64,000 nucleotides of DNA from Planctomycetaceae bacterium (GTDB lineage Bacteria > Planctomycetota > Planctomycetia > Planctomycetales > Planctomycetaceae). Each line of letters starts with the position of its first letter. The stretch's first letter is position 1. Where the stretch lies: assembly GCA_024742875.1 (NCBI GenBank), contig JANSXP010000022.1:1-64000 (forward strand), given 5' to 3'. The notes below the pieces were generated by a model, which was given only the letters and a program-made list of their open reading frames with translations, was not told the origin of the DNA and did not search any database. Positions 11,901 to 41,881 of this stretch are shown here, piece by piece. The position numbers were made by a program, and so were the translations under genes.

Positions 11901-14020
11901 CGTTCCGTGTGCGGGGCGTGATCTGGTATCAGGGCGAATCGAATGCCGAATCACCACGGCGCGTCCGCGAACATGGTCGCCTGCTACCGCTGCTCATCCA
12001 GCAGTGGCGTGACGCTCAGCAGTGCCCGGACCTGCCGTTTCTTCATGTGCAGCTGCCCGCCCTGGACCGTCCCGAGTGGCCGTGGATGCGCGATGATCAG
12101 CGACGGATCACAGAGCGAACCGAAAACGTGGGGATGGTCGTCACGATCGATACGGGCCACCGCACCAACGTGCATCCGACGGCCAAACGCCCTATCGGAC
12201 TGCGACTGGCCGAACTGGCGATCGGCATGACCGAGCCCGCCAGAGCGGCTGATGTTTTTCAAAGCCCAGCGGTCACATCCCACGCCAAAGACCGCGGACA
12301 GTTGACGGTGACGTTTGCGCATTGCGGCGCCGGTCTGCGGACAACAGACGGTGGCGCGCCACGACACTTCGAAGTCTGCGGCAAAGATGGTCGCTTCCAT
12401 CCGGCCACCGCACAAATCGTCTCAGCCAACAGCGTCCAGCTCACCTGTCAAAGTGTTTCTGAGCCACAACACGTACGTTACGCCTGGCAGCCCTGGCCGG
12501 AACCCGCTGTGAATCTGATCAACAGTGGTCAGCTGCCTGCATCGCCGTTTACCACAGAAACAGAAAGCACGTCGCTGGCGCGGCGGCTCTCCGCCCGACA
12601 CACAGACGCTCGTTTGCCACGGCCACCCAACATTCTTTTTCTGGTGTCCGAAGACAACAGTGAGCATCTGGGTTGCTACGGCGAATCACGCGTCCACACA
12701 CCGCATCTGGATCAGCTGGCGGCCGAGGGCGTGCGTTACACGCGGGCGTACGTGCCGTATTCGGTCTGCAGCCCGTCTCGCGCCGCCTTCCTGACGGGGC
12801 TGTACCCTCGACAAACGGGCCACATCGGCCTGGCCACCCACCGCTTCGCCATGGCGGTCGATTACCCCACGCTGCCAGCATTGCTGCACGAAGCTGGCTA
12901 CTACACCGGTTTTCTGGGCAAGACACACATCAACCCGGAACACCTGGTCGAAGATCACATCGACCATCGAGCCATTCGCGGGGCCAATTTTTCCAAAACA
13001 ACAAGCATCACAGAATACGCCCGCGAAGCAGCCAGAGTATTCCGAACGGCTCAGCAGCGGGACCAACCGTTCCTGCTGATCGTCAACTTCGCTGATGCCC
13101 ACAGAAAGTTTGTCGCCCGCTCCCGCGCCGGCTTTCCCTCGCAGCAGCTGAGTGATCCTGTACGTCCGTTTGCCTGGATCGGCTCTGACACGCCCCACCT
13201 GCGGGAAGAGATCCGCGACTACTTCAACTGCATGAATCGCCTCGACGAAGGCATCGGCCTGGTACTGAATGAACTGCGAAATGCGGGCCAGCTGGACAAC
13301 ACCCTCATCGTCTACATCAGTGATCACGGCGCCGACTTTCCCCGCGGCAAGGGCAGCGTGTACGAGCACGGCGTCCGCATTCCCATGATTGTGCGTCACC
13401 CGTCACAGTTTCTCACGGGAGACGTGGAAGAGGGCTTCGTGACCACGCTGGACCTGTTGCCCACAATGCTGAAAACTGCGGGACTGCCGGTGCCCGACTG
13501 GCTGCCGGGACGGCCTCTGCAGGATGTCGCCGCTCGCACGGCCCCACTCCAGCCATACGTCCACACGTTCACCACCGGCTCATCACCGAACCTGCTGTAC
13601 GTGCAGTTCGGCATTCGCGACGAACGCTACAAACTGATCCGCAATCCCGCACGCACCGTCAATCGCCTGGCGGCGTCCCGATATGTCAACAGCCGCATCC
13701 CCCCCGAGCAACAGCAACACAATTTTCTGCACCCGGCGGAACTGGAGCTCTACGATCTGCAGTCCGATCCGCACGAATGGCACAATCTGGCGGAAAGCCC
13801 ACAGCACAGAGCCATGCGAGATCGTCTGCTTCAGGCAATGCGGGCCTTTCAGCACCGCATTGGTGACCCGTTTGTCAGCGAAGATAATCTGAACACCTTC
13901 CTGCAGGAACAAACGGACCACCAGGCTCGCGACTATCGGCGAGCCGACTTTCACTGGCCCCATCGGAAGATGTTCGAACTGGCCGACCCACGTCGTGGGG
14001 ACAGTCAGAAGACGCCGTAG
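8966..14020 (+). CDS. Sulfatase - sialate O-acetylesterase - sulfatase fusion, exported
   Basis: 1,684 residues in one frame. Residues 1-22 form a signal peptide. Domain 1 (about 24-500) is an iduronate-2-sulfatase-like arylsulfatase: metal ligands D34/D35, formylglycine site C73 in CNPSR, and a D341-H342 metal-site motif. Residues about 540-670 form a jelly-roll-like segment after a Pro-rich linker. Domain 2 (about 710-1210) is a sialate O-acetylesterase/SGNH-type esterase with FSDHMVLQ, the nucleophile motif GQSNMEW (S803) and a C-terminal VHP His (H1070). Domain 3 (about 1217-1680) is a heparan N-sulfatase-like enzyme with SEDNSEHLGCYGE, a second formylglycine site C1268 in CSPSR and a SDHGAD motif. 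It probably desulfates and deacetylates a complex, perhaps algal, polysaccharide. These enzymes are normally separate proteins. The start has AAGGA upstream. Its 3' end overlaps the convergent gene by 16 nt. Confidence 0.9.
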   Translation: MNTARTCWMVTATLLSAMAAAAESRPNVLFLAVDDLRPELACYGAVHVHSPHIDSLAATGRRFEAAYCQQAVCNPSRTSLMTGLRPDTTGVVGNHAHFRAQLPDVVTLPQYFRQHGYQAAAIGKIYHGVFPEGASRTKWDTMGDPPSWSVPAVRFGPRYYYTESGIAAARQQFQRMYAPPDPAPDDWTKKLVFGPATEAPDVADNVLYDGQVADAAIAFLRQHTQQSGGQHKPLFLAVGFIKPHSPYVAPQKYFDLYQEMPLPAIDALPQGAPAFAGHNSGELRRYTDQPAEGPISPAAQRRVRQAYYACVSYIDAQAGRVLTALEETGLADNTIVVLLGDHGYHLGEQGLWGKTTNFELDTRVPLIVRAPDMPAPGKSTASLVELLDVYPTLADLAGLPAPAQVEGVSFVPVLQDPNHPGKTAAVSQYPRGQRMGYSLRTSTHRLTQWVDQKTGQRSATELYHYAAAIDGATARTETINLAASRPALVAQLSRQLTPFIKPPPPEAGTPNDQTAPDETPGDGPHEGFESANPGSFQRLSTSLGEWSTDEGRTVIDNRHAATGRQSLQLTGGKKTIVRLRLNDGLDTSGDLHFAAERWTRRAPFSFQIEKLSDGTWTNVFDGSQVRVGRPFLSRVRVPLRDDDITQLRWTVTSPPGTGVLIDDLCLVPAGADDAPAITHARPAPPPVAARAEAVGSAFVMAPAEDKTPPARLLMPPVFSDHMVLQANVDVPVWGKCVPHAPVHVQLGSTSQTTRADAHGDWRLRLPPLPINPQGQPLTITSGSQKLVIRDVLLGEVWLCAGQSNMEWRLQQSADAQFALRDADDHLLRLLHLKGGARGSSGRYTTAHIARLTPSAFFAGQWQLSSPTVAADFSAVAWYFGQHLRQRRDVPIGLICPALGGTPTEAWISQEALQADPELTGLVAGNWLDNPRLGEFCRSRGRANLAGALQAGTPLPGDQHGPNHSFKPGFVWNALEDTRPFRVRGVIWYQGESNAESPRRVREHGRLLPLLIQQWRDAQQCPDLPFLHVQLPALDRPEWPWMRDDQRRITERTENVGMVVTIDTGHRTNVHPTAKRPIGLRLAELAIGMTEPARAADVFQSPAVTSHAKDRGQLTVTFAHCGAGLRTTDGGAPRHFEVCGKDGRFHPATAQIVSANSVQLTCQSVSEPQHVRYAWQPWPEPAVNLINSGQLPASPFTTETESTSLARRLSARHTDARLPRPPNILFLVSEDNSEHLGCYGESRVHTPHLDQLAAEGVRYTRAYVPYSVCSPSRAAFLTGLYPRQTGHIGLATHRFAMAVDYPTLPALLHEAGYYTGFLGKTHINPEHLVEDHIDHRAIRGANFSKTTSITEYAREAARVFRTAQQRDQPFLLIVNFADAHRKFVARSRAGFPSQQLSDPVRPFAWIGSDTPHLREEIRDYFNCMNRLDEGIGLVLNELRNAGQLDNTLIVYISDHGADFPRGKGSVYEHGVRIPMIVRHPSQFLTGDVEEGFVTTLDLLPTMLKTAGLPVPDWLPGRPLQDVAARTAPLQPYVHTFTTGSSPNLLYVQFGIRDERYKLIRNPARTVNRLAASRYVNSRIPPEQQQHNFLHPAELELYDLQSDPHEWHNLAESPQHRAMRDRLLQAMRAFQHRIGDPFVSEDNLNTFLQEQTDHQARDYRRADFHWPHRKMFELADPRRGDSQKTP

Positions 14021-14889
14021 ATGCCGGACTTCACAAACTCCACGCGTCCGTTCCGGATTCGATAATCCACGCCGACGTCGTACAGCAAATGATCCAGCTC
14101 GCCCTGATGCTGCCGGACGAAGCCCACAAACTCCGACGGGTACTGCTGCCATTCCAGAAAGAACAGCAGTTGCCTCACATTCACTTCGGAATAATACACC
14201 GTGTTGGTCGTGCGTTTGTTAGCCAGACAAATCGTGCGGCACGTCCGCAACTCTTCCCGCAGCACCAAAGCGGCCAGGTCATCCGCATCATGCAGAAAGG
14301 CCGCACAGCGCACCTTTTCCTCGATCGCATCCCCGTCTGCGGCATCAAAGAAGAAATAGAAGTTCTCCATTTCGGCCGCATCCGGCTCCCGCGTGAAGCC
14401 ATAACTGATGCCACTGGAAACCGAACTGCCCGGATTGCCCACATACACGTGCACGCGGTCGATGCGGCCACCCGCTGCCGCCACCGAGGCATTCAGATCA
14501 AATGAAAACATGAAGTAGGGCACGTGGGGTCCGGCTGTGGTGGGCAACTGAATGTCACCGCCGCAGCTCGCATTGACGCGTTCAATCGACAGCGCCCGTT
14601 CCTGCCGGCGGTAATCGTACAAATAGACTTCCAGATCCCACCGACCGTCGGCCTGCTTGATGCCATACACACTGCGAAAATCGCCCAGCCCGGCCTGAAT
14701 GCTGCGGACCGTCTCCCGCAGCCATTCGGATTCGGGCATCTGCGTGATGGCATAAAACAGCAAACTGCTGGGCCGCAGCTTACCGGCACCGGGCGCGACC
14801 GGTTCGTAAGACCAGTAGCAATAGTTAAAGTACGGATCCTCAGGACGCATGCGTTCCTGCAGAAAGTCGGGTTCCCGTCCCGCCGTCAT
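14005..14889 (-). CDS. Unknown cluster protein A (possible ABBA-fold-like enzyme)
   Basis: 294 residues from ATG at 14889; the frame stays open further upstream, and an ATG at 14937 would overlap the divergent neighbour's start. I do not recognise the family. Visible features are an aromatic N-terminus (FNYCYWSYEP), alternating strand-like segments including MFSFDLNAS, RIDRVHVYVGNPG, ENFYFFFD and VYYSEVNV, and a C-terminal VGVDYRIRNGRVEF. The order of these elements resembles the divergently transcribed neighbour at 14936, so I infer distant homology. Length and basic/aromatic residues on predicted strands would fit an ABBA prenyltransferase fold, but that is a guess. It sits at the edge of the halogenase/radical SAM cluster and overlaps the sulfatase fusion by 16 nt, tail to tail. 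Confidence 0.7.
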   Translation of the reverse strand: MTAGREPDFLQERMRPEDPYFNYCYWSYEPVAPGAGKLRPSSLLFYAITQMPESEWLRETVRSIQAGLGDFRSVYGIKQADGRWDLEVYLYDYRRQERALSIERVNASCGGDIQLPTTAGPHVPYFMFSFDLNASVAAAGGRIDRVHVYVGNPGSSVSSGISYGFTREPDAAEMENFYFFFDAADGDAIEEKVRCAAFLHDADDLAALVLREELRTCRTICLANKRTTNTVYYSEVNVRQLLFFLEWQQYPSEFVGFVRQHQGELDHLLYDVGVDYRIRNGRVEFVKSGIYGVF

Positions 14890-14935
14890 GCTGTGTTGCT
14901 CCCGTCGTCCCTGCGTGCTGTCCCTGTGTGCTGTC

Positions 14936-15790
14936 ATGAGTGCCGAAAGTTTTGCGTCCTGTTTTGCCACGTGTGGCTGGTCTGTGCTGCAGACCTGGCT
15001 GACCGATCGCGAACTGCCTTTCCTGTTTGAACGCTCACTTCGCCTCGCGGCCGGCACCGTCGAAACGCGTCGCGGTCTGCTGTCGGTTCCTGCCTCCGTT
15101 TTGCGGCAGCACAACGTGCCCGCCGCAGAAGTGTTGCAGATCTGCCGGGCCATGAGCAGCCCGGAATCGCACCGCTCGTCCATCGCCCGCTTTTTGCCAT
15201 CGGCCGGCTGCATACACTTCGGCTTTGAAGCGACTCACACGGTTAGAATCGGCAAGTGCTATCTGGAACTGCCGTCCTCCACCGCCAGCCAGCTCGTTTT
15301 TCTCGGTTTCAAATGGTCGCTGGACGACGACCGCCTCGCGGTGGTGAGTCGCTACCGCGCCCTGCCCATCTCCGATCAGCCCGGGCTGAAGACACAACTG
15401 CTGCAGCAGATTCCGTCGACCGGTCGCGTCGCCGCCGCAGAGCTGATCGACACGTGCGTTCCCGCCAGCCTGACGACGCAGCAACTGGGCGAACTGCGAC
15501 TGCTGGAGGTCAGCGAAGAAGGCAGCCCCCGCCGCTCGCTGGATCTGAACGTCTACGAGCGGCAACTCACACTTCGCGATATCGCAGAGCCGGCGACGGT
15601 CTTCGCCACCGGATTCGAAGAAGCCCTGGCCACCGAAGCAGCCGAAATGACCAACCGCCGACTGACAGACTGGCTGACGCAACATGCAGACAGCCAACTG
15701 GGTCATATCTCGCTGGGCACCGATCGCCAGGAGAAGCCGTTCCTGACGCTGTATCACGCCGCCGACGTGAGCGACACCGAGCAGAGGTAG
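14936..15790 (+). CDS. Unknown cluster protein B (possible ABBA-fold-like enzyme)
   Basis: 284 residues from ATG at 14936; in-frame upstream codons back to 14849 overlap protein A's coding region and look non-coding. No family recognised. Strand-like segments CIHFGFEATHTVRIGKCYL, FLGFKWSLDDD, RRSLDLNVYERQL and GHISLGTDRQ...FLTLYH occur in the same order as matching elements of protein A, suggesting two diverged members of one family. The pattern faintly recalls cyanobactin-type or DMATS/CloQ prenyltransferases (FGFD-like strand followed by an R/K-containing strand). If real, an indole or peptide prenyltransferase next to a tryptophan halogenase would make sense. It converges on the O-methyltransferase with a 30-bp gap. 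Confidence 0.7.
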   Translation: MSAESFASCFATCGWSVLQTWLTDRELPFLFERSLRLAAGTVETRRGLLSVPASVLRQHNVPAAEVLQICRAMSSPESHRSSIARFLPSAGCIHFGFEATHTVRIGKCYLELPSSTASQLVFLGFKWSLDDDRLAVVSRYRALPISDQPGLKTQLLQQIPSTGRVAAAELIDTCVPASLTTQQLGELRLLEVSEEGSPRRSLDLNVYERQLTLRDIAEPATVFATGFEEALATEAAEMTNRRLTDWLTQHADSQLGHISLGTDRQEKPFLTLYHAADVSDTEQR

Positions 15791-15820
15791 TGGCCCGTCC
15801 GAAACGTGGGCCAAAGCCCG

Positions 15821-16831
15821 TCAGTCCCGCCGGGCTGTGGCCAGCAGGAAGGGCACTTCCAGTTCAATCGTCTGCACATCAATCTCCACGAAGCCAGCCT
15901 GTTGCAGCAGGTCGCGATAGTCGTCTGCCGTGCGATACGAGCGGAAAAACAGAAACACGGGCAGCAGACCGTAGGACGTGGCATATTGTGAAAAGTCCCA
16001 GACCTGTCGCTCAAAGATCAGAATGCTTCCTCCGGGCAGCAGCGATTCATAGGTCCTGCGGAGCAGGTGGGCGGCGTGCTCATCGGGCCAGTCATGCAGC
16101 ACAGATTTCCAGGTTACCAGGTCCACAGCCGGAAAGTCGTCCTGCAGCATGTTACCCGGCTGAAAACTCACACGTGCCTGCTCAGCGGTGCCCTGCAAAT
16201 GACGCTGCCCCACGGCACATACCGCCGGCAGATCGAGCACCATCGCCTGCAGCCTGTCCGCCCGACGACAGACCTGCAGAGCGAATTCCCCGCTGTTGCC
16301 GCCCACGTCCAGCATTTGTCTGTGCTGGTCAAAAGCATAGTGCTCCGCACACACGGGCGCCTCGTATCGCGTCAGCATGGTGGTCAGTTCCATCCATCGC
16401 GATGCCTGCAGGCAGCTCGCTGGTGTGACCTGAGTGCAGTTGCCGTAATCGAACAGATCAAACAGAACCGAATGCGCCATAAAGTCTTCTGCGCTGCGGA
16501 GCAGATGATCCATGCCACCAAAGTAGTCCGCCGCCAGCATTTGCGCGAACTTCAGTTTGGTCTGCAGCAGATCCCGATATCGCAATGCCTGGCGAAATTC
16601 GTCCGAGAGCTCCGCTCGTCTATCAGCCAGTGTCACCACATTCGCAGCGGTCAGCATCTGCAGCAGAAAGCGGGCCCCCGATTCGTCCATGCGTTCGCTG
16701 ACGCAATCGGCCGCATCAAGCGGACCTGCCAGCAGCCGATCAATCAGTCCGTAATCAAACGCCGCATGGAGAGCGCGACTGAGCATCGCGTCCTGAACGA
16801 AGTTTTCAATCTGCAGATAGTCGCGACTCAT
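15821..16831 (-). CDS. O-methyltransferase, acetylserotonin/hydroxyindole type
   Basis: 336 residues. The N-terminal third is an all-helical dimerisation-like domain. The Rossmann part starts with MLDVGGNSGEFALQV (SAM motif I), followed by VLDLPAVC and the family hallmark WKSVLHDWPDE, where the His is the usual catalytic base, and LLPGGSILIFE. This is the small-molecule O-methyltransferase family (Methyltransf_2 type), which methylates phenol or hydroxyl groups of natural products. It is the last gene of the nine-gene minus-strand run, 36 bp after the degenerate halogenase. A tailoring O-methylation, or C-methylation in some family members, is the likely role; substrate unknown. Confidence 0.88.
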   Translation of the reverse strand: MSRDYLQIENFVQDAMLSRALHAAFDYGLIDRLLAGPLDAADCVSERMDESGARFLLQMLTAANVVTLADRRAELSDEFRQALRYRDLLQTKLKFAQMLAADYFGGMDHLLRSAEDFMAHSVLFDLFDYGNCTQVTPASCLQASRWMELTTMLTRYEAPVCAEHYAFDQHRQMLDVGGNSGEFALQVCRRADRLQAMVLDLPAVCAVGQRHLQGTAEQARVSFQPGNMLQDDFPAVDLVTWKSVLHDWPDEHAAHLLRRTYESLLPGGSILIFERQVWDFSQYATSYGLLPVFLFFRSYRTADDYRDLLQQAGFVEIDVQTIELEVPFLLATARRD

Positions 16832-16867
16832 GATGCGTCGTCTCAGGTTTTGCCCAGCGGGCAGGCA

Positions 16868-18364
16868 TCAGCCCGCCTGGCTTTCGGGAAACGGACGGCT
16901 GTGAATCCAGTCCAGCATTTCCTCGTGCAGCGGCAGGTCTGCCACCAGCGCTTCGTTGTGCTTCACCAGTTCACGCAGCAGGCGTCCGGTTTCTGCGGGC
17001 GGCAGCGTGGCCGTGGATAGCTGGGGACGCTGCGGCAATCGACCGGCCGCAGCCAGCAGCGACTGATACTGCCAGGCGGGCGGCGTTTGCGGATCACGCG
17101 GCGAAATCAGGCCCGCCTGATCGTAAACGGCCAGCAGACCGTCATCACCAGTTCGTTCGCTGAGCCACTGCCCCCACGCTGACGGTCGCTGGGCGGCCAG
17201 CCGCCAGTGGACCTGGCAGAATTCGTCATTCTGCTGCAGCATCTGCTGTGTTCGCTGGCAGAATTCCGTCCGAGTGGCTCGCCCCACCCGGCGATTGGGA
17301 AACAGACTCACCAGACGTTCGATGGCCGCATGATGCAAATGCATGGCCGTGCCGGAAAATGTCTCCAGCCGATCCGTCACCGCACCCACCGTGACCACGT
17401 TGTCCCGCCAGTCAATGCCGGCAGGCCGACCACAGCCCTCGATCTGCACCTGGGCCATCTCATCCGTCTGGCTCGCCACGCTGCTGCGAATGACGTGGCG
17501 CAGCTGCTGTTGGGCCGCCTCGTCTGTGGTCAGCGCCGCGGGATAGATCAGGCGATACTCTGTCTGATCAGCCAGTGGCGTGACGGTGACCCACCCACTT
17601 TCGGTGGCCACGCAGCGGGTGAACACGGGCACCTGCCGAACTCCGGGCTGCCGTACCGTCATGACACGCTGTTCGGTGTCTTCGCTTTCCCCCGGCCGCA
17701 GATCGACAAAGAAATCGCCCGGGACGGCCTGGCCACTTTGAAGTTTGACCTGCGCGATGCCTCCGCGTCCATTGGGAAAGACACGATCAATGGGCCCCTC
17801 TACCGCTTCCACACCATTGGCCATCGCCAGCTGTCGCAGCCAGTCCCGCAATCCCGACAGGTCACCGTGGTAGCCGTACTCACCAGAATCCTGAAAGGCC
17901 GATTCCCCACCGAACGCCTGTGGGCATTTGCGGGCCAGCGAGGCCGTCCAGTGGGCCGAATAGCTGTGCAGTGGTCGCAGCAGGCGACCGGCTTTGCGTT
18001 CTGACAGCCACACGTCAAACAATTCCTGCCCCAGCAGGCGGTGAGGGAACTGACCGATCGGCTGCCAAAAATCGCGACCTTCGTGCGCCCAGTCAGAAAA
18101 CTGCGATGCCAGGCAATACGTCCCCTGACAGGCCCGCAGCATGTCGTGCTCGTCCACGCCCAGATTCTTTAGAAAGCGACCAAACGCAGGCGTTGTCGTA
18201 AACGCGCGTGACGGGGCCGACTGCCCGCCAGGACAAACCGTGATGCGAATCCCCAGCGGACCGAAGCGACTGAGCAGCATCGACGAGGCGATCCAGGCAA
18301 ACACGTCATTGCCCAGCAGGACCACGCGTTTGGGCAACCGCAGTGTTGGTCGGTATTCATCCAT
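16868..18364 (-). CDS. Degenerate tryptophan-halogenase-like protein
   Basis: 498 residues. It aligns by eye with the complete halogenase at 23465-24991 over its length: ACQGTYCLASQFSDW matches ACDATWKLGIQFSDW, and the C-terminal NEALVADLPLHEE matches NRAALRDLPMHEE. Key features are eroded. The FAD motif GGGTAGW is replaced by LLGNDVFAW, GEATIP is absent, the catalytic Lys (K75 in the intact paralogue) is Cys (C84), and WxWxIP reads GWVTVTP. The reading frame is intact and the protein full length, so this looks like a retained non-halogenating paralogue rather than a decayed pseudogene. It could be a partner subunit, a substrate-binding protein, or a flavin enzyme with new chemistry. It lies 53 bp after the kinase gene and 36 bp before the O-methyltransferase. 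Confidence 0.82.
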   Translation of the reverse strand: MDEYRPTLRLPKRVVLLGNDVFAWIASSMLLSRFGPLGIRITVCPGGQSAPSRAFTTTPAFGRFLKNLGVDEHDMLRACQGTYCLASQFSDWAHEGRDFWQPIGQFPHRLLGQELFDVWLSERKAGRLLRPLHSYSAHWTASLARKCPQAFGGESAFQDSGEYGYHGDLSGLRDWLRQLAMANGVEAVEGPIDRVFPNGRGGIAQVKLQSGQAVPGDFFVDLRPGESEDTEQRVMTVRQPGVRQVPVFTRCVATESGWVTVTPLADQTEYRLIYPAALTTDEAAQQQLRHVIRSSVASQTDEMAQVQIEGCGRPAGIDWRDNVVTVGAVTDRLETFSGTAMHLHHAAIERLVSLFPNRRVGRATRTEFCQRTQQMLQQNDEFCQVHWRLAAQRPSAWGQWLSERTGDDGLLAVYDQAGLISPRDPQTPPAWQYQSLLAAAGRLPQRPQLSTATLPPAETGRLLRELVKHNEALVADLPLHEEMLDWIHSRPFPESQAG

Positions 18365-18417
18365 GATTCATTTTCCCTTTCCCCGCGGCCGACCATTCGG
18401 CGCGGCGCTCATGTTCT

Positions 18418-18978
18418 TCAGGCCGCCTGCGGCAGCAGGTGACGCATCTGTTGCAGCACTTTTGCCACCGATGGCTCCGCGTTGATTCGTTCATCCGACT
18501 GACCGCCAATCACGGACTTCTGCCAGGTGAACATCGGCCGCGTGACGTTCAGCCAGGCATCGCAGAAGTCGGCCATCCACTGCAGAGCTGCCACTGCGTC
18601 CTGCGGTTCACCGGCGGCAAACTGGCGACACAACTGGCCCGCCTTCCGGACAAACGCGATATCAAACGGCACGTCCAGCCAGAGTTGCAGGTCAATCAGG
18701 GGCCGCAACTGGCCGTGCTGTCGGCCAAAGTGCGTTTCCAGCAGCACCAGTTCGCTGTTGGCGGTGGCCCGCTCCACGGCCTCCACCAGCAGCGTGAAGT
18801 CAAACTGCTGCACGTCACCTCCCTGCTGCCACCAGGTGGCCACGTCCTGTGCCGAACGCGAGAACGCCGGATTGAATTCGTCCTCGCACAGCACCGCGCA
18901 GGAAAACTGCTGGCTCAGCGCCTGTGCGATGGTCGACTTGCCGCTGCCCATAGTGCCGGTAATGGCAATCACGCTCAT
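18418..18978 (-). CDS. P-loop small-molecule kinase
   Basis: 186 residues. The Walker A motif GTMGSGKST is at residues 8-16, followed by CEDEFNPAFS, where the acidic pair is placed as in uridine/nicotinamide-riboside-type and other NMP-like kinases, and by VLLETHFG, a Walker B-like strand. Its first codon overlaps the stop of the methyltransferase at 18975 in a 4-nt ATGA, implying translational coupling. A kinase in a tailoring cluster could phosphorylate a pathway intermediate, a precursor alcohol such as a prenyl alcohol, or a sugar; none of these is shown by the sequence. The family placement (uridine-kinase-like AAA/P-loop) is moderate. Confidence 0.8.
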   Translation of the reverse strand: MSVIAITGTMGSGKSTIAQALSQQFSCAVLCEDEFNPAFSRSAQDVATWWQQGGDVQQFDFTLLVEAVERATANSELVLLETHFGRQHGQLRPLIDLQLWLDVPFDIAFVRKAGQLCRQFAAGEPQDAVAALQWMADFCDAWLNVTRPMFTWQKSVIGGQSDERINAEPSVAKVLQQMRHLLPQAA

Positions 18979-19808
18979 GCCGCCCCCTTCACTGCGGTAA
19001 CATATTCATAGCGCAGATAGTCTCGCTGCTGCAGCCACTGGAGCATTCGTACAGAGCGTGTGGCCGCATCTGCGTCACTGACGTTCGATGTTTCCAACTG
19101 GCTGGGCGCGACAAACTGGTAGCTGGGCAGGGTTGCCTGTGTGGCGTCGGTGAGCTCAATCTGCGTCCAGTTGTCATCGCGCAGCAGATCAGCCGCCGTC
19201 CCATCCTCGCACCACGGATCAGGCCACGGACCATAGCCATCCTGCAGGACCGCGGCGATGGCGAACCCCGGCAGGCTGGGCTCAGCGGTCAACACAAAAT
19301 CAGACACCACGAGTCGCCCCCCGGTCACCAGACATCGCCGCGCTTCTGCGAGAAAGCGTTTGCGGGACGAAAAGTGAAACATGGCCTCCACGCAAAACAG
19401 CACGTCAAACGAAGCGTCGTCAAACGGCAGGTCACAGGCATCAGCCTCCTGCCAGCGAAACGTATTGCCGTGCTGACTTCGCAGCTCCTGACAGATTTCC
19501 AGCTGCTGCCAGTCGATATTCACGCCCGTCAGGACGCCGCCTCTCAACTGCTGATCGACCTGCTCCAGCAGACCACCAAAACCGCAGCCCACATCCAGAA
19601 TCCGCCGCTTGTCGACCAGTTCAGCCCGTGCGATCATCTGATCGGTCAGCCGCCGCTGAGCCGCGGCAAACTGGTCGGCTGAAACGCCGGTCCCGTTTTC
19701 CGGCGGCTGATCCCAGTGTCCCAAATGCGCAGCACGCGAACACTGCCCCGCACGGAATGCCTCGATCAGTCGCTCAAAGTAAGCCGGTCCGCTGTGCGTG
19801 ATACTCAT
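18975..19808 (-). CDS. Class I SAM-dependent methyltransferase
   Basis: 277 residues from ATG at 19808, chosen because it lies 2 bp after the stop of the upstream oxygenase; the frame extends upstream without a stop. Motif I is RILDVGCGFGG, followed by LTGVNID, ACDLPFDDASFDVLFCVEAM and GGRLVVSDF, a Methyltransf_11/sterol-or-tocopherol-methyltransferase-like layout. The product acts on a small molecule in the cytosol, substrate unknown. It is coupled to the kinase by a 4-nt overlap and is the second methyltransferase of the cluster. Its central GYGPWPDPW loop and Trp/Asp-rich segment are not features I can assign. Confidence 0.88.
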   Translation of the reverse strand: MSITHSGPAYFERLIEAFRAGQCSRAAHLGHWDQPPENGTGVSADQFAAAQRRLTDQMIARAELVDKRRILDVGCGFGGLLEQVDQQLRGGVLTGVNIDWQQLEICQELRSQHGNTFRWQEADACDLPFDDASFDVLFCVEAMFHFSSRKRFLAEARRCLVTGGRLVVSDFVLTAEPSLPGFAIAAVLQDGYGPWPDPWCEDGTAADLLRDDNWTQIELTDATQATLPSYQFVAPSQLETSNVSDADAATRSVRMLQWLQQRDYLRYEYVTAVKGAA

Positions 19809-19810
19809 GG

Positions 19811-20671
19811 CTATCCCCAGCAGTAAACGGCGTCGCGATCGACGGCTTTGGCCATGAAGCTGCACGCCACCCACCGCGTCGTGGGACCTTCCACAGGCGT
19901 GACGCGATGCAGATAGCGACCGGAATCCACAATCACCAGATCACCGGCGGCCAGCGTCACCCTGGCCGAAGACAGAGATTCCAATTCCACTTTCCCGGCC
20001 CATGCGCCCGTGTCTTCGTGCGAAGCCGCGTGCTCGACGCAGTGGTCGTACACCTGCAGGTCACCGCCGGACTCAGGTGGGCCGATCATGAGCACGGCCG
20101 AATACATGCGATCTTCCACCAGTGTTTGCAGATGCTCGTACGAGTTCCGCACGGATTGCTCGTTGTCGCAGTGCGGAGGAATGTAGCCGCCTTCGGCATG
20201 GCCTCGCAGCGTGGTCATCATGTAATCCCACTCAGGCTCCGGGCCGGGCGCCGGCAGATACGGACGACCTTCATCCAGGTCACTGAGCACAGCCAGTAAG
20301 CGGCGACGCAGCGACTGCTCTCCCGGCAACAGCTGCTCCAGATGATCGTGGAACTCGGCCGCCTGGTGAAAATACGTCAGCGGATCTGTGCCCACCAGAT
20401 TCAGGTTGCGACCATAAAACCAGGAGCGAAACTTCTCCGGGAAGGTGGTCTTCAAAAACGGCGGGTCGTGGGCTTCCAGGCGCGCGGTAGCCGTCGCCAT
20501 CGTTGCCGCATCGTACAGGCCACGTACCACGACAGCCGTCAGACGCCGCTCCCGCAATCGCGTGACGGCATCCGGGAACTGGGCCCGCCGCTCATCGCCG
20601 AATTCCGCCACACGGAAAAACGGAGTGGGCGCACCCAGCAACCGCTCGGTTGGTGATTCTGCAAGACTCAT
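19811..20671 (-). CDS. 2-oxoglutarate/Fe(II)-dependent oxygenase
   Basis: 286 residues from ATG at 20671, where ATGA overlaps the stop of the B12 radical SAM gene. The 2-His-1-carboxylate triad is visible: H167 and D169 in PPHCDNE and H255 in RYLHRVTPVEGPTTRW, with R266 a candidate 2-oxoglutarate-binding residue. Surrounding strands (GDLVIVDSG and WVACSFM) fit the double-stranded beta-helix. It probably hydroxylates or otherwise oxidises the cluster product, perhaps at an unactivated carbon. The upstream in-frame extension to 20782 lies inside the neighbouring gene and is unlikely to be used. Confidence 0.85.
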   Translation of the reverse strand: MSLAESPTERLLGAPTPFFRVAEFGDERRAQFPDAVTRLRERRLTAVVVRGLYDAATMATATARLEAHDPPFLKTTFPEKFRSWFYGRNLNLVGTDPLTYFHQAAEFHDHLEQLLPGEQSLRRRLLAVLSDLDEGRPYLPAPGPEPEWDYMMTTLRGHAEGGYIPPHCDNEQSVRNSYEHLQTLVEDRMYSAVLMIGPPESGGDLQVYDHCVEHAASHEDTGAWAGKVELESLSSARVTLAAGDLVIVDSGRYLHRVTPVEGPTTRWVACSFMAKAVDRDAVYCWG

Positions 20672-22020
20672 GCGGCCGACCTCCGTGGCAGAATGGCAGG
20701 ATCCTGCGGCGCTGAGAACACCCAGAAGTATTCTCCGATCGATCCGCGGTGCACCTGCGTCTGCTGGCTGAGAAATTCGCATTCGCGGGCGATGTCATCC
20801 GCCGACCAGCCCAGACACGATTCAATTTTCAACGTGACCGGATCATATTTCAGCTGATGCTCGGCGGGAGATCGCACCATCAGTGCGGACGGCAGCACAC
20901 AGCAGTGGTACACCCGCAGCGCGCAGGGAAACGAGCGGGCCCGTTCAAAGCTGGCACGAAACTGCTCGGGAGAATCGCCGGGTAGTCCCATAATGATTTC
21001 GATGGCCACCCGCGCGACCTCAGTCAGCTGCTGCACGTTGTGGATGAACCGCTGTTCCTCGTAGTTGCGTTCCACGTGAGCCAGCACATCGTTGTCGAAG
21101 GACTGCAGGCCAATGCCGACCAGCGGGCTGCCAACCCGACTGAGAAATTCGATATGTTCGTCCTGGATTTTGGCCGGATAGACTTCCGAGATCAGTTTGC
21201 GATCTTCGAAGAACTGAGTCTGTTGAGCGGCCAGGCTCAGCTGCTCAAACGCCCGACTGTTGAGATTCAGACCCGCATCCACCAGCAGGGCTCCGGTCAC
21301 GTCCAGCTGTGCCATGGCGTCAAACTCCGCAGCCAGATGATCGGCCGTGCGGACGCGTTTGGGGGACGCCATCGTGCCCCATTCGCAGAACGAGCACGTG
21401 TACGGACAGCCGCGATACGTCTGCAGCACACCAAGTCCCCCCGAAGGAACCAGCCCCATCACATAGGGCGAGGGCAGTTCATTCAGATCAGCCAGAGGGC
21501 GTTTCTTCGTTTCGTGCCACGCACTGCCATCCCAGATGGCCACACCACGAATGGTGCCCAGCACCTGGGCCGAACGATCTTCGTGCGTGAGAATGTCGAG
21601 AAACGTGCGTTCGCCCTCACCGACAATCAGCACGTCGGTCACATCTCTGAGCGAATGAAACGGTGTCTGATCGAACATCGCCGGATGGGCGGACGGGCCA
21701 CCAAACACCAGCAGACGCGAATCGTCCTCAAGCGCCATCCGCACGGCCACCTCGGCAAACAGCGGGAAGGACCACAGGTAAGCACTGAAACCCACGACAT
21801 CCGGATCAACGTCCAGCAGCGCGTCGTACAGTTCCTCAGCCGAGGCATCGTGCAGATCGAAGACAACAACCTCCAGTCCCTCCAGTTCCGACGCTCTCAG
21901 CGTCGCCTCGACCATCCGCAGTCCGTGGTTGGAGATAAACTCGGGCATTGCGGGGTCCGGCTCGGGGTACATGGCCACGAGCGCAATGCGTCTGCCCCGC
22001 CGTTTGCTCACCGGCGTCAT
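20668..22020 (-). CDS. B12-binding-type radical SAM enzyme, copy 2
   Basis: 450 residues from ATG at 22020 (MTPVSKRRG). The N-terminal 180 residues form a cobalamin-binding-like Rossmann domain (ALVAMYPEPD, VVGFSAYLW, LVFGGPSAHP and VGEGE). The radical SAM core follows, with RGCPYTCSFCEWG carrying the CxxxCxxC cluster motif, then DAGLNLNSRAF, YPAKIQDEHIEFLS, GLQSFDNDV and IIMGLPGDS. It is a clear paralogue of the next upstream gene. Class B radical SAM enzymes usually methylate unactivated carbons or catalyse ring and rearrangement chemistry; which applies here is unknown. The C-terminal region (SCLGWSADD) is shared with the paralogue. Coupled by ATGA to the oxygenase. Confidence 0.88.
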   Translation of the reverse strand: MTPVSKRRGRRIALVAMYPEPDPAMPEFISNHGLRMVEATLRASELEGLEVVVFDLHDASAEELYDALLDVDPDVVGFSAYLWSFPLFAEVAVRMALEDDSRLLVFGGPSAHPAMFDQTPFHSLRDVTDVLIVGEGERTFLDILTHEDRSAQVLGTIRGVAIWDGSAWHETKKRPLADLNELPSPYVMGLVPSGGLGVLQTYRGCPYTCSFCEWGTMASPKRVRTADHLAAEFDAMAQLDVTGALLVDAGLNLNSRAFEQLSLAAQQTQFFEDRKLISEVYPAKIQDEHIEFLSRVGSPLVGIGLQSFDNDVLAHVERNYEEQRFIHNVQQLTEVARVAIEIIMGLPGDSPEQFRASFERARSFPCALRVYHCCVLPSALMVRSPAEHQLKYDPVTLKIESCLGWSADDIARECEFLSQQTQVHRGSIGEYFWVFSAPQDPAILPRRSAA

Positions 22021-22042
22021 CAGCGTCTGACTGTCACAGCGG

Positions 22043-23455
22043 TCAGGCACTTTTGCGGACTCCCGGCGTGAAGTGTCGCTGCGAGAGCGTGGGCGTCCGG
22101 GTACGCTGTGCGGCCGGTGGAAAGGACCACCAGAAGTCTCCCGCAGTGCCGCCACAGGCCTGCGTCTCGCGTGTCAGCACGGCCCGCATGTCCAGCAGAT
22201 CGTCTTCGCTCCAGCCCACACACGACTGCATCGAAAGCGTGTGCGGATCGTACTTCATTTCCCACTCCGGCAGCCCGCGGGTCATGAGGGCATCGGGGAG
22301 AACCAGCGTGTGATACACGCGGACGGTCACCGGCAGTGTGAGCGCGTAACTGAGCGTCTCAATGAATCCGTCCCATGTGTCCGTCGGCAGACCAAAGATG
22401 ATTTGCACTTCGATATTGGCGGCCACCGTGGACAGTTTTTCAATCGCCGGTCCAAAGTTCTCCCGACCATAGGGACGCTGCAGTCGCTTCAGCAGTTCCG
22501 GATTAAAGGACTGCAGTCCCACACCCAGATAGGACGGACCGCATTGCGACAAAAACTCAATATGCTCGTCTTTGATTTTGGAAGGATAGATCTCACACCA
22601 CAGCTGGCTGTCCTTCAGAAAGCCCACATTCTTTTCGGCATTGGCCAGATTGCGAAACGCGGCGGCGTTGAGGTTGAGCCCCGCGTCGACATTAAACACG
22701 GCCGGACATTCGTGCGCCTGAAGGGCCTCCAGCTCGCGGGTCAGATACTCTTCAGAAAAGCACCCTTTGCTGATGTCTTTGGCGCCCCACTCACAGAAAG
22801 TGCACGACATTGGACATCCGCGAAACGACTCCAGATAGCCCACCGCCTGATAACTCATCAGGCCCATTTGATAGGGGGAGGCAATGTCGTCCAGATTCAT
22901 CGGTGGCGGCCGAAAGCCTGTATTCTTCCAGCCCAGCGGTGTGGGCAGGTCCAGCCCCGGCACTTCAGACAGCGCATCAAACGAGCTCTGCGTGGCCGGC
23001 TTGCTGCCCATGGCCAGAATGATGTCACAGAACGTCTCTTCCCCTTCCCGCGTGACCACCGCATCCACGTAATCAATGGCGTTGCGGTAGGGGGCCAGAT
23101 CCATCACGGGCGGCCGGGCTGACGGTCCGCCAAAGACAATGGTGCACTCCGGCGACCGCTGCCTGATGCGACGCGCCACTTCAATCAGGCACTGCATCGA
23201 CCACACAAACAGCGAAAAACCGACAACCTGCGGATCGAAAGCCAGCAGGTCCTCCACGTAACCTTCGACGTCGGCTTCTTCCAGGTCAAACAGCCGCACT
23301 TCCGTGCCCTGCAGCTGGGGATGGGCCACCACAGCCGCCAGCACGCGATGCACGCCGTAAGATGGCAGTTCGGCGCCGTCGTGCTCATGACTGTCCACGG
23401 CAGGTGTCAGGCACGCGAGCGCGACTCGGGTAATTTTTCGAGGGGAAGTTGTCAT
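22043..23455 (-). CDS. B12-binding-type radical SAM enzyme, copy 1
   Basis: 470 residues. The N-terminal Rossmann domain (VALACLTPAVD, VVGFSLFVWSM, VFGGPSARP and TREGEETF) resembles cobalamin-binding domains of class B radical SAM proteins. The core has RGCPMSCTFCEWG (CxxxCxxC), DAGLNLNAAAF, YPSKIKDEHIEFLS, GLQSFNPELL and IIFGLPTDTWD. Together with copy 2 it shares an unusual CEWG extension of the cluster motif, a SPYxMGL motif before the core and a C-terminal SCVGWSEDD. It lies 9 bp after the halogenase and 22 bp before copy 2. Acting on the same scaffold at two sites, or as a heterodimer, is an inference. Confidence 0.88.
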   Translation of the reverse strand: MTTSPRKITRVALACLTPAVDSHEHDGAELPSYGVHRVLAAVVAHPQLQGTEVRLFDLEEADVEGYVEDLLAFDPQVVGFSLFVWSMQCLIEVARRIRQRSPECTIVFGGPSARPPVMDLAPYRNAIDYVDAVVTREGEETFCDIILAMGSKPATQSSFDALSEVPGLDLPTPLGWKNTGFRPPPMNLDDIASPYQMGLMSYQAVGYLESFRGCPMSCTFCEWGAKDISKGCFSEEYLTRELEALQAHECPAVFNVDAGLNLNAAAFRNLANAEKNVGFLKDSQLWCEIYPSKIKDEHIEFLSQCGPSYLGVGLQSFNPELLKRLQRPYGRENFGPAIEKLSTVAANIEVQIIFGLPTDTWDGFIETLSYALTLPVTVRVYHTLVLPDALMTRGLPEWEMKYDPHTLSMQSCVGWSEDDLLDMRAVLTRETQACGGTAGDFWWSFPPAAQRTRTPTLSQRHFTPGVRKSA

Positions 23456-23464
23456 CGCTGTTCC

Positions 23465-24991
23465 TTACGACGCCTTCGCAAACGCGGTGGGATGCACGTG
23501 TCGCAGCGACTCTTCGTGCATGGGCAGATCACGCAGCGCCGCTCGGTTTTGCTCGATGATGGCTGTAAGAATCTGCTCCAGTTGTTTGCCTTCCGCGCCC
23601 AGAGCAGCCGCGGGCGGCCTGGAAGGCAGTCGGCCACTGCCAGCGAGCAGATGAAAATAGCTGGTCTCACCAAAGGCATCCGGTGACAGCAGGGGCAGTT
23701 CGCCAACTTCCTCGTACAACTTCAGGCGATGTCGCAGCGGGTCAGACAGTGACGCCTCCCGCGCGGCCGTCCAGAAGCCGGTGGGATCGTTTTCTGCCGT
23801 GCGATCGTTCAGATGGTAATGCAGCTGAACGAAGTCGCGAACTTCATCAAAGACAACTGTCATCGCCTGGTTATACGCCGTCTGCAGCACACGCTCGCTC
23901 GGTTCAGCGGGAAACAGCTGCAGGAATTTTTCGATGCCAACCTGCGTCAGATGCAGACCGCTCGATTCCAGCGGCTCGGCAAACCCGGCTGCCAGCCCCA
24001 GCGACAAAACATTGCCCACCCAGAAATTTGCTCGCCGGCCTGTTTGCAGCGACATCACGCGGGGCTCCAGCGTGGCGATCATGTCCTGCGGAAGACCGGC
24101 AAACTGCAACAGTTCATTTGTCGCGTCTTCTGCGGACTGAAACTGAGTGGAGAACACATAACCCAGTCCGCGACGTGTGATCAGGGGAATGTCCCAGCAC
24201 CAGCCGGCCGACAGGGCAGTGGCCCTGGTGTGAACGGGCACGATGGCCGCAGGCGGCAAACGCAGCACCACCGCCGCATCGCACAACAGTTCGTTGCCCC
24301 AGGACTGCCAAACACTGTCCGGATGATCCTGCAGTACGGGCTCGAAGCCCGAACAGTCGATGAAAAAGTCGGCCGACAGCAAAGAGCCATCAGACAGTCT
24401 CACGTGCTGCACACAGCCGTCATCAGCGCGAACTGCGTGTTGCACCCGCTGAGCGATGTGCTGGCAGCCGGCCTGCATCGCATGCTGCTGCAGCCAGCCG
24501 GCCAGTCCTTCGGCATTGAGGTGATACGCGTAGGATCCCGTCGCTGCGATGGGCGACAAACGGGAGCGACCATGCGGCGCTTTGCCGGCCAGCGCAGCCG
24601 ACCAGTGCAGCGAATGACCGTGGTAGGGACGCAGACGTTTTTCACTGCGGGACAGCTGTGCCAGCCAGAACGGGAACAGATCGCGGCCGTCAATTTGTGC
24701 TCCACAAACGCCGAACGGATGCCAGATGTCTTTGCCGGCTTTCCAGTCGCTGAACTGAATTCCCAGCTTCCAGGTCGCATCGCACGCCTGCATGAAGCCG
24801 GCTTCGTCACCGCCCAGCATCCGCACCAGTCTCAGGATGGAGGGAATCGTGGCTTCGCCCACGCCCACCCCGCCGCTTTCGTCATCGACGATGGTGATCT
24901 GACACTGCTGCGCTCCGGTAGCACGACTGAGCATCGCGGCCGCCATCCAGCCGGCCGTCCCACCGCCGATAATGGCAATGTGTCGTGTCAT
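23465..24991 (-). CDS. Flavin-dependent tryptophan-halogenase-type enzyme
   Basis: 508 residues from ATG at 24991, eight codons inside the longest frame and placed so that the FAD motif starts at residue 8 as usual. All hallmarks are present: GGGTAGW for FAD, GVGEATIP, catalytic Lys K75 in TWKLGIQF, the WCWDIP form of the WxWxIP motif that prevents monooxygenation, and PLESSGLHL with the conserved Glu. Such enzymes make HOCl or HOBr from reduced flavin and O2 and halogenate an indole, pyrrole or phenol. A partner flavin reductase is not encoded nearby and is probably supplied in trans. Regioselectivity and substrate (free Trp versus a peptide or late intermediate) cannot be read here. Confidence 0.92.
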   Translation of the reverse strand: MTRHIAIIGGGTAGWMAAAMLSRATGAQQCQITIVDDESGGVGVGEATIPSILRLVRMLGGDEAGFMQACDATWKLGIQFSDWKAGKDIWHPFGVCGAQIDGRDLFPFWLAQLSRSEKRLRPYHGHSLHWSAALAGKAPHGRSRLSPIAATGSYAYHLNAEGLAGWLQQHAMQAGCQHIAQRVQHAVRADDGCVQHVRLSDGSLLSADFFIDCSGFEPVLQDHPDSVWQSWGNELLCDAAVVLRLPPAAIVPVHTRATALSAGWCWDIPLITRRGLGYVFSTQFQSAEDATNELLQFAGLPQDMIATLEPRVMSLQTGRRANFWVGNVLSLGLAAGFAEPLESSGLHLTQVGIEKFLQLFPAEPSERVLQTAYNQAMTVVFDEVRDFVQLHYHLNDRTAENDPTGFWTAAREASLSDPLRHRLKLYEEVGELPLLSPDAFGETSYFHLLAGSGRLPSRPPAAALGAEGKQLEQILTAIIEQNRAALRDLPMHEESLRHVHPTAFAKAS

Positions 24992-25034
24992 TGCTTCTGT
25001 GGATGTTCGCGGCATTCTGCGGCGACCTTCTTTC

Positions 25035-25973
25035 TTAAGCCACGCGGGGCATGGGGATCAACTGATCTTCATGCCACCCATAGTGATTGACGTACGCCGT
25101 GTTCAGGCCCAGACACTGCAGCGAGCCGCAGACATCGCGGTACTCACACTGCTTGAAGCCGTTGCGATTGAATTCCTCCCAGAAACGGGGGTCGATCCGC
25201 AGCTCCGGCTGATCGTTGTGCAGGGCGTCCTGACAGTCGGCCATCAGACAGTGAGGGAAGTTTTTCACCTCGACATGCCGGCCCAGCGCCCGCGCGTCGC
25301 GAATGGCCTGTAGCAAAAAGGGACGCACGGCCAGATGAGAGACCAGCAGCTCCGGCTGCCCCTCTTCCTCCATCGGCCAGTAGTTCCAGAAGTCCATCTG
25401 CACCAGTCGCGAAAGCGGCTGCAGCAGCGACACCACGTCCGGCAGCATCTGATAGCTCAAGCGCGTGACGACCGTGTTGGTCATCAATCGCACGCTGTCA
25501 AACTGATCAAGGTTGTGCAGTCCGGCGAGCGTTTTTTCAAACGAGCCGGGCACTTCGGTGATCAGATCGTGCTGCTGTGCGGTGGCCGCCGTGACACTCA
25601 CAAAGTACTCATCGATCCCGGCGTCCACCAGTTCGCGACAGTAGCTTTCACTGGCCAGTCGCATCGCGTGCGTTTGAATGCGGACATGCTCAAAGCCGCT
25701 GTCCCGGGCGCGGCGGGCCATGTTCGGCAGGTCTTTGCGCAGTGTGACTTCCGCGCCGGTGAGGATCAGCCCCTTCCACTTGCCGTGCTCCGCATTCTCC
25801 GCCAGCAGCGCCTCAAATTCTGTGTCGTCCGCCGGCTTCAGCCAGTGCATGCTGTCCAGAATCATGCAATGCTGACACGCCAGGTTGCACCGAAAGTGCA
25901 CCGTCATCTCGACGTAATCAGAATGCAGAAACGGCCCTGAGATGGTGATCTCCCCCGGAAAACATGGGGTCAC
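25035..25973 (-). CDS. Radical SAM enzyme with SPASM/Twitch-like C-terminus
   Basis: 312 residues. CxxxCxxC is CNLACQHC (C29, C33, C36), followed by LILTGAEVTL (the GGE-like SAM-binding strand). The C-terminus carries more Cys in FPHCLMADC and QCEYRDVCGSLQCLGL followed by AYVNHYG, the spacing of an auxiliary Fe-S (SPASM/Twitch) domain. Enzymes of this type modify peptides (thioether, C-C or epimerisation) or small molecules. It is the first gene of the nine-gene run, so the cluster promoter should lie just upstream of 25973. A peptide substrate is possible, which would make the cluster RiPP-like, but no leader-binding RRE domain or precursor was found. Confidence 0.87.
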   Translation of the reverse strand: MTPCFPGEITISGPFLHSDYVEMTVHFRCNLACQHCMILDSMHWLKPADDTEFEALLAENAEHGKWKGLILTGAEVTLRKDLPNMARRARDSGFEHVRIQTHAMRLASESYCRELVDAGIDEYFVSVTAATAQQHDLITEVPGSFEKTLAGLHNLDQFDSVRLMTNTVVTRLSYQMLPDVVSLLQPLSRLVQMDFWNYWPMEEEGQPELLVSHLAVRPFLLQAIRDARALGRHVEVKNFPHCLMADCQDALHNDQPELRIDPRFWEEFNRNGFKQCEYRDVCGSLQCLGLNTAYVNHYGWHEDQLIPMPRVA

Positions 25974-41744: not shown

Positions 41745-41881
41745 GCCCGTCTCACTTGTGGAAGGAGGGAACGTAAACTCAGCGCGCACGGCTGTCCTGA
41801 AACCGCACACAGGGAAATCTGTGGGAAGCCTGAAACGAGTGTGAGCGGCGCGGGGGAGTGCGCCGCGAAAGCGAACGCGAA

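Follow-up and report, generated by a model that had tools for sequence, protein, structure and literature searches.

The first 64 kb of contig C19 (GenBank JANSXP010000022.1) in the 8.18-Mb genome of a Planctomycetaceae bacterium (assembly GCA_024742875.1), referred to in its full length as “the window”, carry a cluster of eleven genes in which radical S-adenosylmethionine (SAM) enzymes, flavin-halogenase family members, methyltransferases, a WelO5-family iron- and 2-oxoglutarate-dependent (Fe/2OG) enzyme, a P-loop kinase-like protein and two proteins of no recognized sequence family are found together. The set is conserved in other planctomycetes, and part of it recurs near genes for giant proteins in two phyla; we tentatively read it as a cassette for the maturation of such a protein. 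Genomes are denoted below by an upper-case G and a number; g402, in lower case, is a gene.

Nine consecutive genes on the minus strand, from rSAM to OMT, run from 25973 to 15821, with intergenic gaps (refined starts) of 19, 9, 22, -4, 2, -4, 53 and 36 nt. Beyond OMT lies a divergent pair, p313 (+) and g402 (-), with 46 bp between the genes and start codons refined from homologues. A preliminary description of this DNA, made from the letters alone, had reported this arrangement (gaps of -4 to 53 nt) and the enzyme classes of the nine genes, and Pfam agrees with the latter. It had set the cluster at 14005-25973, a span that omits a giant open reading frame (ORF) at 2-8593 which may belong to the system. 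The features are the following:

2-8593, minus strand: giant repeat protein whose ORF is open at the contig start (at least 2,864 aa); LEPR-XLL-like motif MLEPRLLLSG close to the N-terminus; candidate substrate
14005-14889, minus strand: g402, tentative prenyltransferase-barrel (PT-barrel; AmbP3/FamD1-like) protein, low-confidence model
14936-15790, plus strand: p313, protein with an aromatic-prenyltransferase (PT-barrel) fold, from an AlphaFold2 model and Foldseek
15821-16831, minus strand: OMT, O-methyltransferase (Pfam Methyltransf_2, 1e-27)
16868-18364, minus strand: hal2, degenerate flavin halogenase, a pseudo-enzyme (Pfam Trp_halogenase, 9e-48)
18418-18978, minus strand: kin, P-loop kinase-like protein (Pfam AAA_18, 5.8e-7)
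18975-19808, minus strand: MT1, class I SAM methyltransferase (Pfam Methyltransf_11, 2.6e-21)
19811-20671, minus strand: WelO5-family Fe/2OG enzyme with HxD, predicted oxygenase (PF22814, 6e-61)
20668-22020, minus strand: B12b, cobalamin-binding radical SAM enzyme (Pfam B12-binding and Radical_SAM)
22043-23455, minus strand: B12a, cobalamin-binding radical SAM enzyme (Pfam B12-binding and Radical_SAM)
23465-25015, minus strand: hal1, intact flavin-dependent halogenase (Pfam Trp_halogenase, 5.9e-125)
25035-25973, minus strand: rSAM, radical SAM enzyme (Pfam, 4.8e-15)

In Pfam and NCBIfam scans, run on ten of the eleven cluster proteins together and on p313 separately, no domain of a non-ribosomal peptide synthetase (NRPS), polyketide synthase (PKS) or terpene synthase was reported, as the preliminary description had stated. 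A 1,684-aa ORF on the plus strand (8966-14020) separates the giant ORF from g402; judged by eye and not by a family search, it appears to join two sulfatase-like parts and an esterase-like part, and G307 and G402 have no gene at the matching position.

Enzyme families, motifs and folds

The motifs of flavin halogenases include a PLES-type Glu. In hal1, the catalytic Lys, WxWxIP and PLES are present in all eight copies examined (leaving out the G405 copy, which has a stop, and a partial copy in G500), and GxGxxG in seven, the eighth (G404) beginning at a contig edge, so that hal1 has the features of a flavin-dependent halogenase. GxGxxG, WxWxIP and the catalytic Lys are given as motifs of these enzymes in PMC8407142. 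The nearest solved structures are 6y1w, 9luq and 6frl, the last of which is BrvH, associated in the same source with “indolic substrates” (PMC8407142). With its motifs kept, hal1 resembles the BrvH-type halogenases, from which it differs in being paired with a conserved inactive paralogue. That paralogue, hal2, has lost GxGxxG and the PLES glutamate in 8/8 copies, keeps the catalytic Lys in 2/8 and a WxWxIP-like motif in 3/8, and is nonetheless retained at 36-48% identity; the eight copies are not independent, those of G493 and G500 being near-identical. Judged by these motifs, hal2 is a conserved, non-catalytic pseudo-halogenase. Among the copies of G402, G404 and G493/G500, some keep the WxWxIP-like motif or the Lys despite the lost flavin motif, a pattern that looks as if an active halogenase had decayed stepwise.

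The Fe/2OG enzyme aligns to WelO5 and carries an HCD iron motif in the seven copies examined, the Asp aligning with Gly166 of WelO5 (a residue label taken from a G166D entry). According to PMC8407142, the iron site holds a carboxylate in hydroxylases and usually Ala or Gly in halogenases; by this rule the enzyme should oxygenate rather than halogenate, and a role as third halogenase was discarded, since HxD, and not HxG/A, was found in 7/7 copies.

The rSAM protein has CxxxCxxC and a C-terminal CX5CX4C in 10/10 copies, the latter probably forming one twitch/SPASM-like cluster. Both B12a and B12b combine B12-binding and radical SAM domains with CxxxCxxC (7/7 copies each), as expected of cobalamin-dependent radical SAM enzymes, and they are predicted carbon methylases, in a class that also includes non-methylating, OxsB-like members. 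The nearest solved structures of B12b are TokK and CysS. In kin, Walker A is present in 9/9 copies. The preliminary description had nearly every enzyme class occurring twice; B12a and B12b are ~35-38% identical, while MT1 and OMT are not a clear duplicated class because they match different Pfam families.

It had also taken the divergent pair for related proteins. As sequence relatives the two were rejected (hhalign probability 0.2%), and neither has a convincing Pfam or NCBIfam family match. The AlphaFold2 model of p313, built with four homologues, has a mean predicted local distance difference test score (pLDDT) of 86.8 and a predicted template-modelling score of 0.85; of its 453 Foldseek matches, every one of the best 50 is a prenyltransferase of the aromatic, indole, amino-acid or peptide kind (best E 8.3e-7, probability 1.00, template-modelling score ~0.5), and p313 can confidently be assigned on this model to the aromatic-prenyltransferase (PT-barrel) fold. 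The model of g402 is poor (pLDDT 59.6). Its top eight Foldseek matches are also all aromatic prenyltransferases, the best (E 7.8e-4) being the sole match below 1e-3 for this low-confidence model; FamD1 and AmbP3 lead, with AmbP1 also present, all three from hapalindole pathways. A PT-barrel fold is thus tentative for g402, and it is in this fold, not in sequence, that the two proteins may be alike. Prenyl transfer by either is predicted from the fold.

Precedents in small-molecule biosynthesis exist for every enzyme class of the cluster. In such a pathway hal1 would halogenate an aromatic primary metabolite (Trp, Tyr or an indole), the PT-fold pair would prenylate it, B12a and B12b would methylate it at carbon, the WelO5-type enzyme would hydroxylate it and O- or N-methylation would complete a free prenylated and halogenated alkaloid. 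This is a serious possibility, one that we place somewhat below maturation of a giant protein. The position of hal1 close to 6y1w, 9luq and BrvH, the modelled resemblance of g402 to FamD1, AmbP3 and AmbP1, and the kinship of B12b with TokK and CysS agree with it; the cluster proteins scanned include none that would form a scaffold or make a prenyl diphosphate, and such a pathway would leave unexplained why part of the set travels with giant-protein genes in two phyla (see below). The hapalindole, ambiguine and welwitindolinone clusters share with the present one the PT-barrel fold of prenyltransferases (tentative in g402), methyltransferases and a WelO5-family 2OG enzyme, and in PMC4236562 their core is described with isonitrile synthases I1-I3 and a geranyl diphosphate (GPP) synthase, along with Trp and isoprenoid genes. 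In contrast, no isonitrile synthase, Trp-biosynthesis, prenyl-diphosphate or GPP-synthase gene was seen among the cluster proteins scanned here, and the WelO5 homologue has HxD.

The other precedent to be weighed is that of ribosomally synthesized and post-translationally modified peptides (RiPPs). The polytheonamide-type tool kit comprises a radical SAM enzyme, two B12 methylases, a methyltransferase and a 2OG oxygenase, and the cluster likewise encodes one radical SAM enzyme, two B12 radical SAM enzymes, a methyltransferase and a 2OG oxygenase; it differs in its additional halogenases, PT-fold pair and kinase, and in that no precursor peptide was found. The best NCBIfam score of rSAM is to the peptide-maturase model HxsC4, with haem and MoaA enzymes among its next matches. 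For B12a, the RiPP C-methyltransferase model TIGR03975 gives a score, but KedN5, PhpK and HpnR give higher ones. All of these scores fall far below the curated cut-offs. When the small ORFs of 18 stretches of related loci were compared, none of precursor size proved to be shared by the clustered loci, the strong matches lying in the near-identical flanks of G493/G500 or inside the giant gene of G307/G402, and a precursor within the cluster was consequently rejected. A RiPP pathway with an unlinked precursor peptide is, in our view, improbable. A nucleotide pathway of the AdeV/OxsB type, prompted by the kinase and the B12 enzymes, was also considered; nothing was seen in its support, and no test was aimed there.

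Literature searched for combinations of these genes gave no described cluster with this set among the matches listed, in keeping with what the preliminary description had said of known pathways. The main text of a 2025 review on planctomycete metabolites does not contain “prenyl”, “indole” or “radical SAM” (PMC12078418).

Conservation and co-inheritance

In a phylum sample of 392 genomes, true B12b orthologues were found in 2 (two more matches are 26-27% identical) and g402 in 2. In a family sample (n = 170), g402 and the WelO5-type gene occur in 9 genomes each, hal1 and/or hal2 in 10, rSAM in 10 and p313 in 13, four of the last being distant (G398, G400, G476 and G498). The pairwise overlap of the four gene sets compared is 8 or 9 genomes (hypergeometric p 3e-12 to 4e-9, kinship ignored); B12a was searched in 13 chosen genomes, and OMT, kin and MT1 in 17.

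The eleven genes stand in one order in G000, G307, G402 and G406 (locus L015), and this conservation places the set beyond chance. G404, of the same genus as the window, has eight genes in cluster order on a 9.7-kb contig and rSAM on a separate one; g402 and p313 were not found there. G492 also has the full set, ordered differently and divided between two contigs, with the break falling within B12b. In G493, an assembly 99% complete, all eleven are present and dispersed over seven contigs of 34-370 kb (g402 on C39; p313 on C104; B12a-B12b on C50; the WelO5-type gene on C52; MT1 on C27; kin-hal2-OMT on C112; rSAM-hal1 on C72), and G500 holds pieces of all eleven in an arrangement consistent with this. 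G487 keeps six genes, each on its own contig (g402, p313, rSAM, hal1, OMT and kin), and the thresholds used revealed no B12a, B12b, WelO5-type gene, MT1 or hal2; this reduced set suggests two layers, a core of rSAM, hal1, the PT-fold pair, kinase and OMT, and a later one of the B12 pair, 2OG enzyme, MT1 and hal2. In G499, only g402, p313 and the WelO5-type gene survive, as broken remnants; G405 retains rSAM, together with a hal1 interrupted by a stop and, at the edge of a contig, part of B12a. None of the genes searched was found in G401 and G403.

The complete but dispersed set of G493 and the remnants elsewhere indicate that the genes stay together and decay together even when unlinked; that is, they tend to be co-inherited without linkage. 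Lack of co-occurrence at homologous loci had been named in the preliminary description as grounds for abandoning the cluster, and the genes do co-occur, even where they are unlinked. A real, conserved set is thus confirmed, and it is its reading as an ordinary small-molecule cluster that has become doubtful, as the core travels with giant secreted proteins. The neighbours of the dispersed genes were considered as hidden scaffold enzymes and rejected, those scanned being DUF1501, LpxI, MoeA, GFO/IDH, DUF3472, SecA-like and other proteins. In gene trees, G000 and G492, which belong to different genera, are sisters for rSAM, the WelO5-type enzyme, kin and p313, which suggests transfer of the cluster; the trees of B12a, hal1 and hal2 disagree with this pairing.

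Giant proteins near the cluster genes

The giant of the window shares 61% identity over 2,785 aa with that of G307 and 59% with that of G402, whose genes lie close to the cluster (the G307 gene, of ~12,000 codons, begins 24 bp after g402, and that of G402 328 bp after it). A giant also precedes the p313-like gene in each of G398, G400 and G498, and in the last two SapC lies between them; the giants are ~10,000 aa long in G398 and G400, while the ORF of G498 is open at the contig start and has its frame broken near the 3' end. The possibility that the p313-like genes of G398 and G400 stand beside an NRPS or PKS was rejected, as the large ORFs are RTX/LEPR giants and not synthases. An association of SapC with a halogenase and TonB was considered, and no paper in the literature searched mentioned the three together. 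In both G493 and G500, kin shares 4 nt with a SecA-like gene (SecA-like-kin-hal2), and a giant lies divergent beside the latter.

The association extends to an alphaproteobacterium. When 72,556 plasmid records were searched by tblastn (E<=1e-3 for g402 and for p313, E<=1e-20 for rSAM, E<=1e-6 for a 751-aa piece of the window giant), each of the four queries matched one record, and it was the same one, NZ_CP049813.1, a plasmid of Pontibrevibacter nitratireducens. On it, a 3,926-aa autotransporter-like protein is followed by g402 (36-38%) and rSAM (49-54%) homologues, and kin (27-32%) and OMT (29-32%) homologues stand directly upstream of a gene for a 10,603-aa LEPR-XLL protein; downstream of the latter come DUF3467, an RND-type adaptor, an M50/PqqD protein, a SecA-like ATPase, a second adaptor and, last, p313 (26-30%). 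These five homologues (rSAM, g402, p313, kin and OMT) are a subset of the six genes kept by G487. The SecA-like protein of G493/G500 is 42.5% identical to that of the plasmid, the end of the plasmid LEPR-XLL giant is 34-37% identical to the G398 and G400 giants, and the best piece of the window giant matches it at 33% over 695 aa (E 6e-60). The LEPR domain NF012209 scores above cut-off near the N-terminus of the Pontibrevibacter and G400 giants; by regular expression, LEPRLLL or LEQRMxL occurs in the giants of the window, G307 and G402, and LETRSLL in that of G493. Two further large proteins of the window, both on the minus strand (38004-41810 and 41882-44095), have the LEPR-XLL-like N-terminal motifs LENRTLLA and LETRALLA, respectively, and the first has zero copies of the module described next.

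A repeated Tyr/Trp module, YxYxG...DYxDxxxW in the window, is a candidate target. With the expression [YF]x[YF]xG-x(5-40)-[DEQ][YFNV][YFSTNG]-x(2-5)-W, it is found 8 times in the window giant, covering 8/13 of its Trp, and 8 times in the N-terminal part of the G307 giant, 8 in G402, 5 in G398, 7 in G400, 5 in G498 and 4 in the Pontibrevibacter LEPR-XLL protein; shuffled sequences give <=0.04 modules on average. It thus occurs 4-8 times in 7/10 giants linked to cassette genes, the exceptions being the autotransporter of Pontibrevibacter and the giants of G493 and G500. It was found 0 times in four other large proteins and in none of five giants (those of Pseudosulfitobacter, Alisedimentitalea, Methylosinus, Mesorhizobium and Rhodobacteraceae M382) from alphaproteobacterial export loci without a cassette homologue in the stretches read, three of these giants being partial; the loci were chosen among 117 records matched by a SecA-like query. 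Such alphaproteobacterial plasmid loci (L206-L212) bring together a giant with DUF3467, HlyD-type, M50/PqqD, SapC, SecA-like and adaptor genes, in subsets that vary.

A possible maturation cassette and its significance

We favor, with less than firm confidence, the reading of the cluster as a cassette for the post-translational maturation of a giant LEPR-XLL-type protein that is secreted and rich in repeats, because its core lies repeatedly near giant-protein genes in two phyla. The module, present in 7/10 cassette-linked giants and in none of the five from export loci lacking cassette genes, also speaks for it, as do the failure to find a conserved ORF of precursor size and a background count in the complete genome G307, where 2 of 20 spaced 20-kb regions had an ORF of >=1,500 aa, one of them repeat-rich. 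In its fullest form, which we consider rather unlikely to hold in every part, the proposal is of an undescribed system in which Tyr and Trp in repeated modules of surface proteins of up to ~12,000 residues are decorated jointly by rSAM, by hal1 partnered with the inactive hal2, by the two B12-dependent methylases, by the WelO5-type enzyme as hydroxylase and by the PT-barrel enzymes, with a core mobile between phyla and genes sometimes dispersed yet co-inherited.

Several observations weigh against maturation of the giant, starting with the fact that proximity is no enzymology. The p313-like gene is the sole member of the set in G398, G400 and G498. Neither the giant beside SecA-like-kin-hal2 in G493/G500 nor the autotransporter beside g402-rSAM in Pontibrevibacter has a BLAST match to the window giant or a module. 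NF012209 was not reported for the giants of the window, G307 and G402 (nor for that of G493), and no match to the export genes (SecA-like, HlyD, M50) was obtained in the 64-kb window. Large ORFs other than the adjacent giant also lie near the cluster of G307 (L185, L171), so giants are not rare there. On the approximately three quarters of the Pontibrevibacter plasmid read, hal1, hal2, B12a, B12b, the WelO5-type gene and MT1 were not found; across the whole plasmid collection, B12b matched two other records at 28% and the WelO5-type enzyme none, and hal1 matched 81 records, of which the best 15 listed do not point to NZ_CP049813.1. For half of the cluster, the link to giants accordingly rests on planctomycetes only.

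The module calls for similar caution. Its expression was composed after the G307 protein had been read, and most Trp lie outside it in other giants (8/23 inside in the N-terminal part of G307, 4/56 in Pontibrevibacter and 7/52 in G400). The five control giants are not homologous to that of the window, so that absence of the module may reflect the protein family and not a missing cassette, and the seven module-bearing giants are three lineages of mutually homologous proteins; with unrelated controls, this is a correlation of protein families rather than of independent events. The lack of homology of the control and G493/G500 giants to the window giant lowers our confidence in the maturation reading.

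The neighbourhood of rSAM offers a further alternative. In six genomes (G493, G500, G487, G404, G307 and G402) it adjoins a Legionella_OMP-like gene or homologue, including the three in which the set is dispersed, and most cassette genes of G493 and G487 adjoin unrelated genes, both of which also count against the giant. The substrate could then be this outer-membrane protein, or the cassette could make a group for several envelope proteins; the window and the loci read in G492 and G405 yielded no homologue of it, none is annotated beside rSAM on the Pontibrevibacter plasmid, and we hold this to be slightly less probable than a RiPP.

Should maturation of the giant be correct, the protein would be made in the cytosol and its aromatic modules modified before or during export. 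The core (rSAM, g402, p313, kin and OMT) would act on the polypeptide chain of the giant or on a group that it bears, the favored target being the repeated module YxYxG...(D/E)Y(S/T)xxxW. We infer the giant as substrate, the order of the steps and every reaction: rSAM would open the chemistry on the polypeptide, hal1 would halogenate Trp or Tyr, the PT-fold pair would prenylate, or at least bind, the aromatic modules, OMT and MT1 would methylate, B12a and B12b would attach carbon-bound methyls, and the WelO5-type 2OG enzyme would hydroxylate, while hal2 may guide hal1 or present the substrate. Halogen, C-methyl, hydroxyl and methyl groups would thus be added, in this planctomycete family, by hal1, the B12 pair, the WelO5-type enzyme and MT1 together with the non-catalytic hal2.

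Two known types of system are comparable. Accessory SecA2 systems modify and export serine-rich-repeat adhesins, the known modification being glycosylation; by analogy, an accessory SecA and cytosolic modification of a giant repeat adhesin may be shared features, the difference being that radical SAM, halogenase, PT-fold and methyltransferase proteins are found here. The alphaproteobacterial LEPR-XLL export loci have in common with the planctomycete loci a giant secreted repeat protein, a SecA-like gene (G493/G500) and SapC near a p313-like gene (G400, G498); unlike them, the five examined have no cassette homologue in the stretches read and giants without the module, and the window has no nearby export genes.

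Whatever the product, the complete but dispersed set of G493 implies that pathways of this sort can escape genome mining that relies on physical clustering. If the product is a small molecule instead, the cluster is still a set unmatched to any described one in the literature searched, with a conserved pseudo-halogenase and two families of PT fold (tentative for one) recognized by no Pfam or NCBIfam model. If the giant is the substrate, enzymes of alkaloid and RiPP type would act on some of the largest bacterial proteins, giving a chemically hardened or adhesive surface; this would provide a modification step for the poorly understood LEPR-XLL proteins, a term rare in the literature searched, as well as a candidate substrate class for the orphan BrvH-type halogenases.

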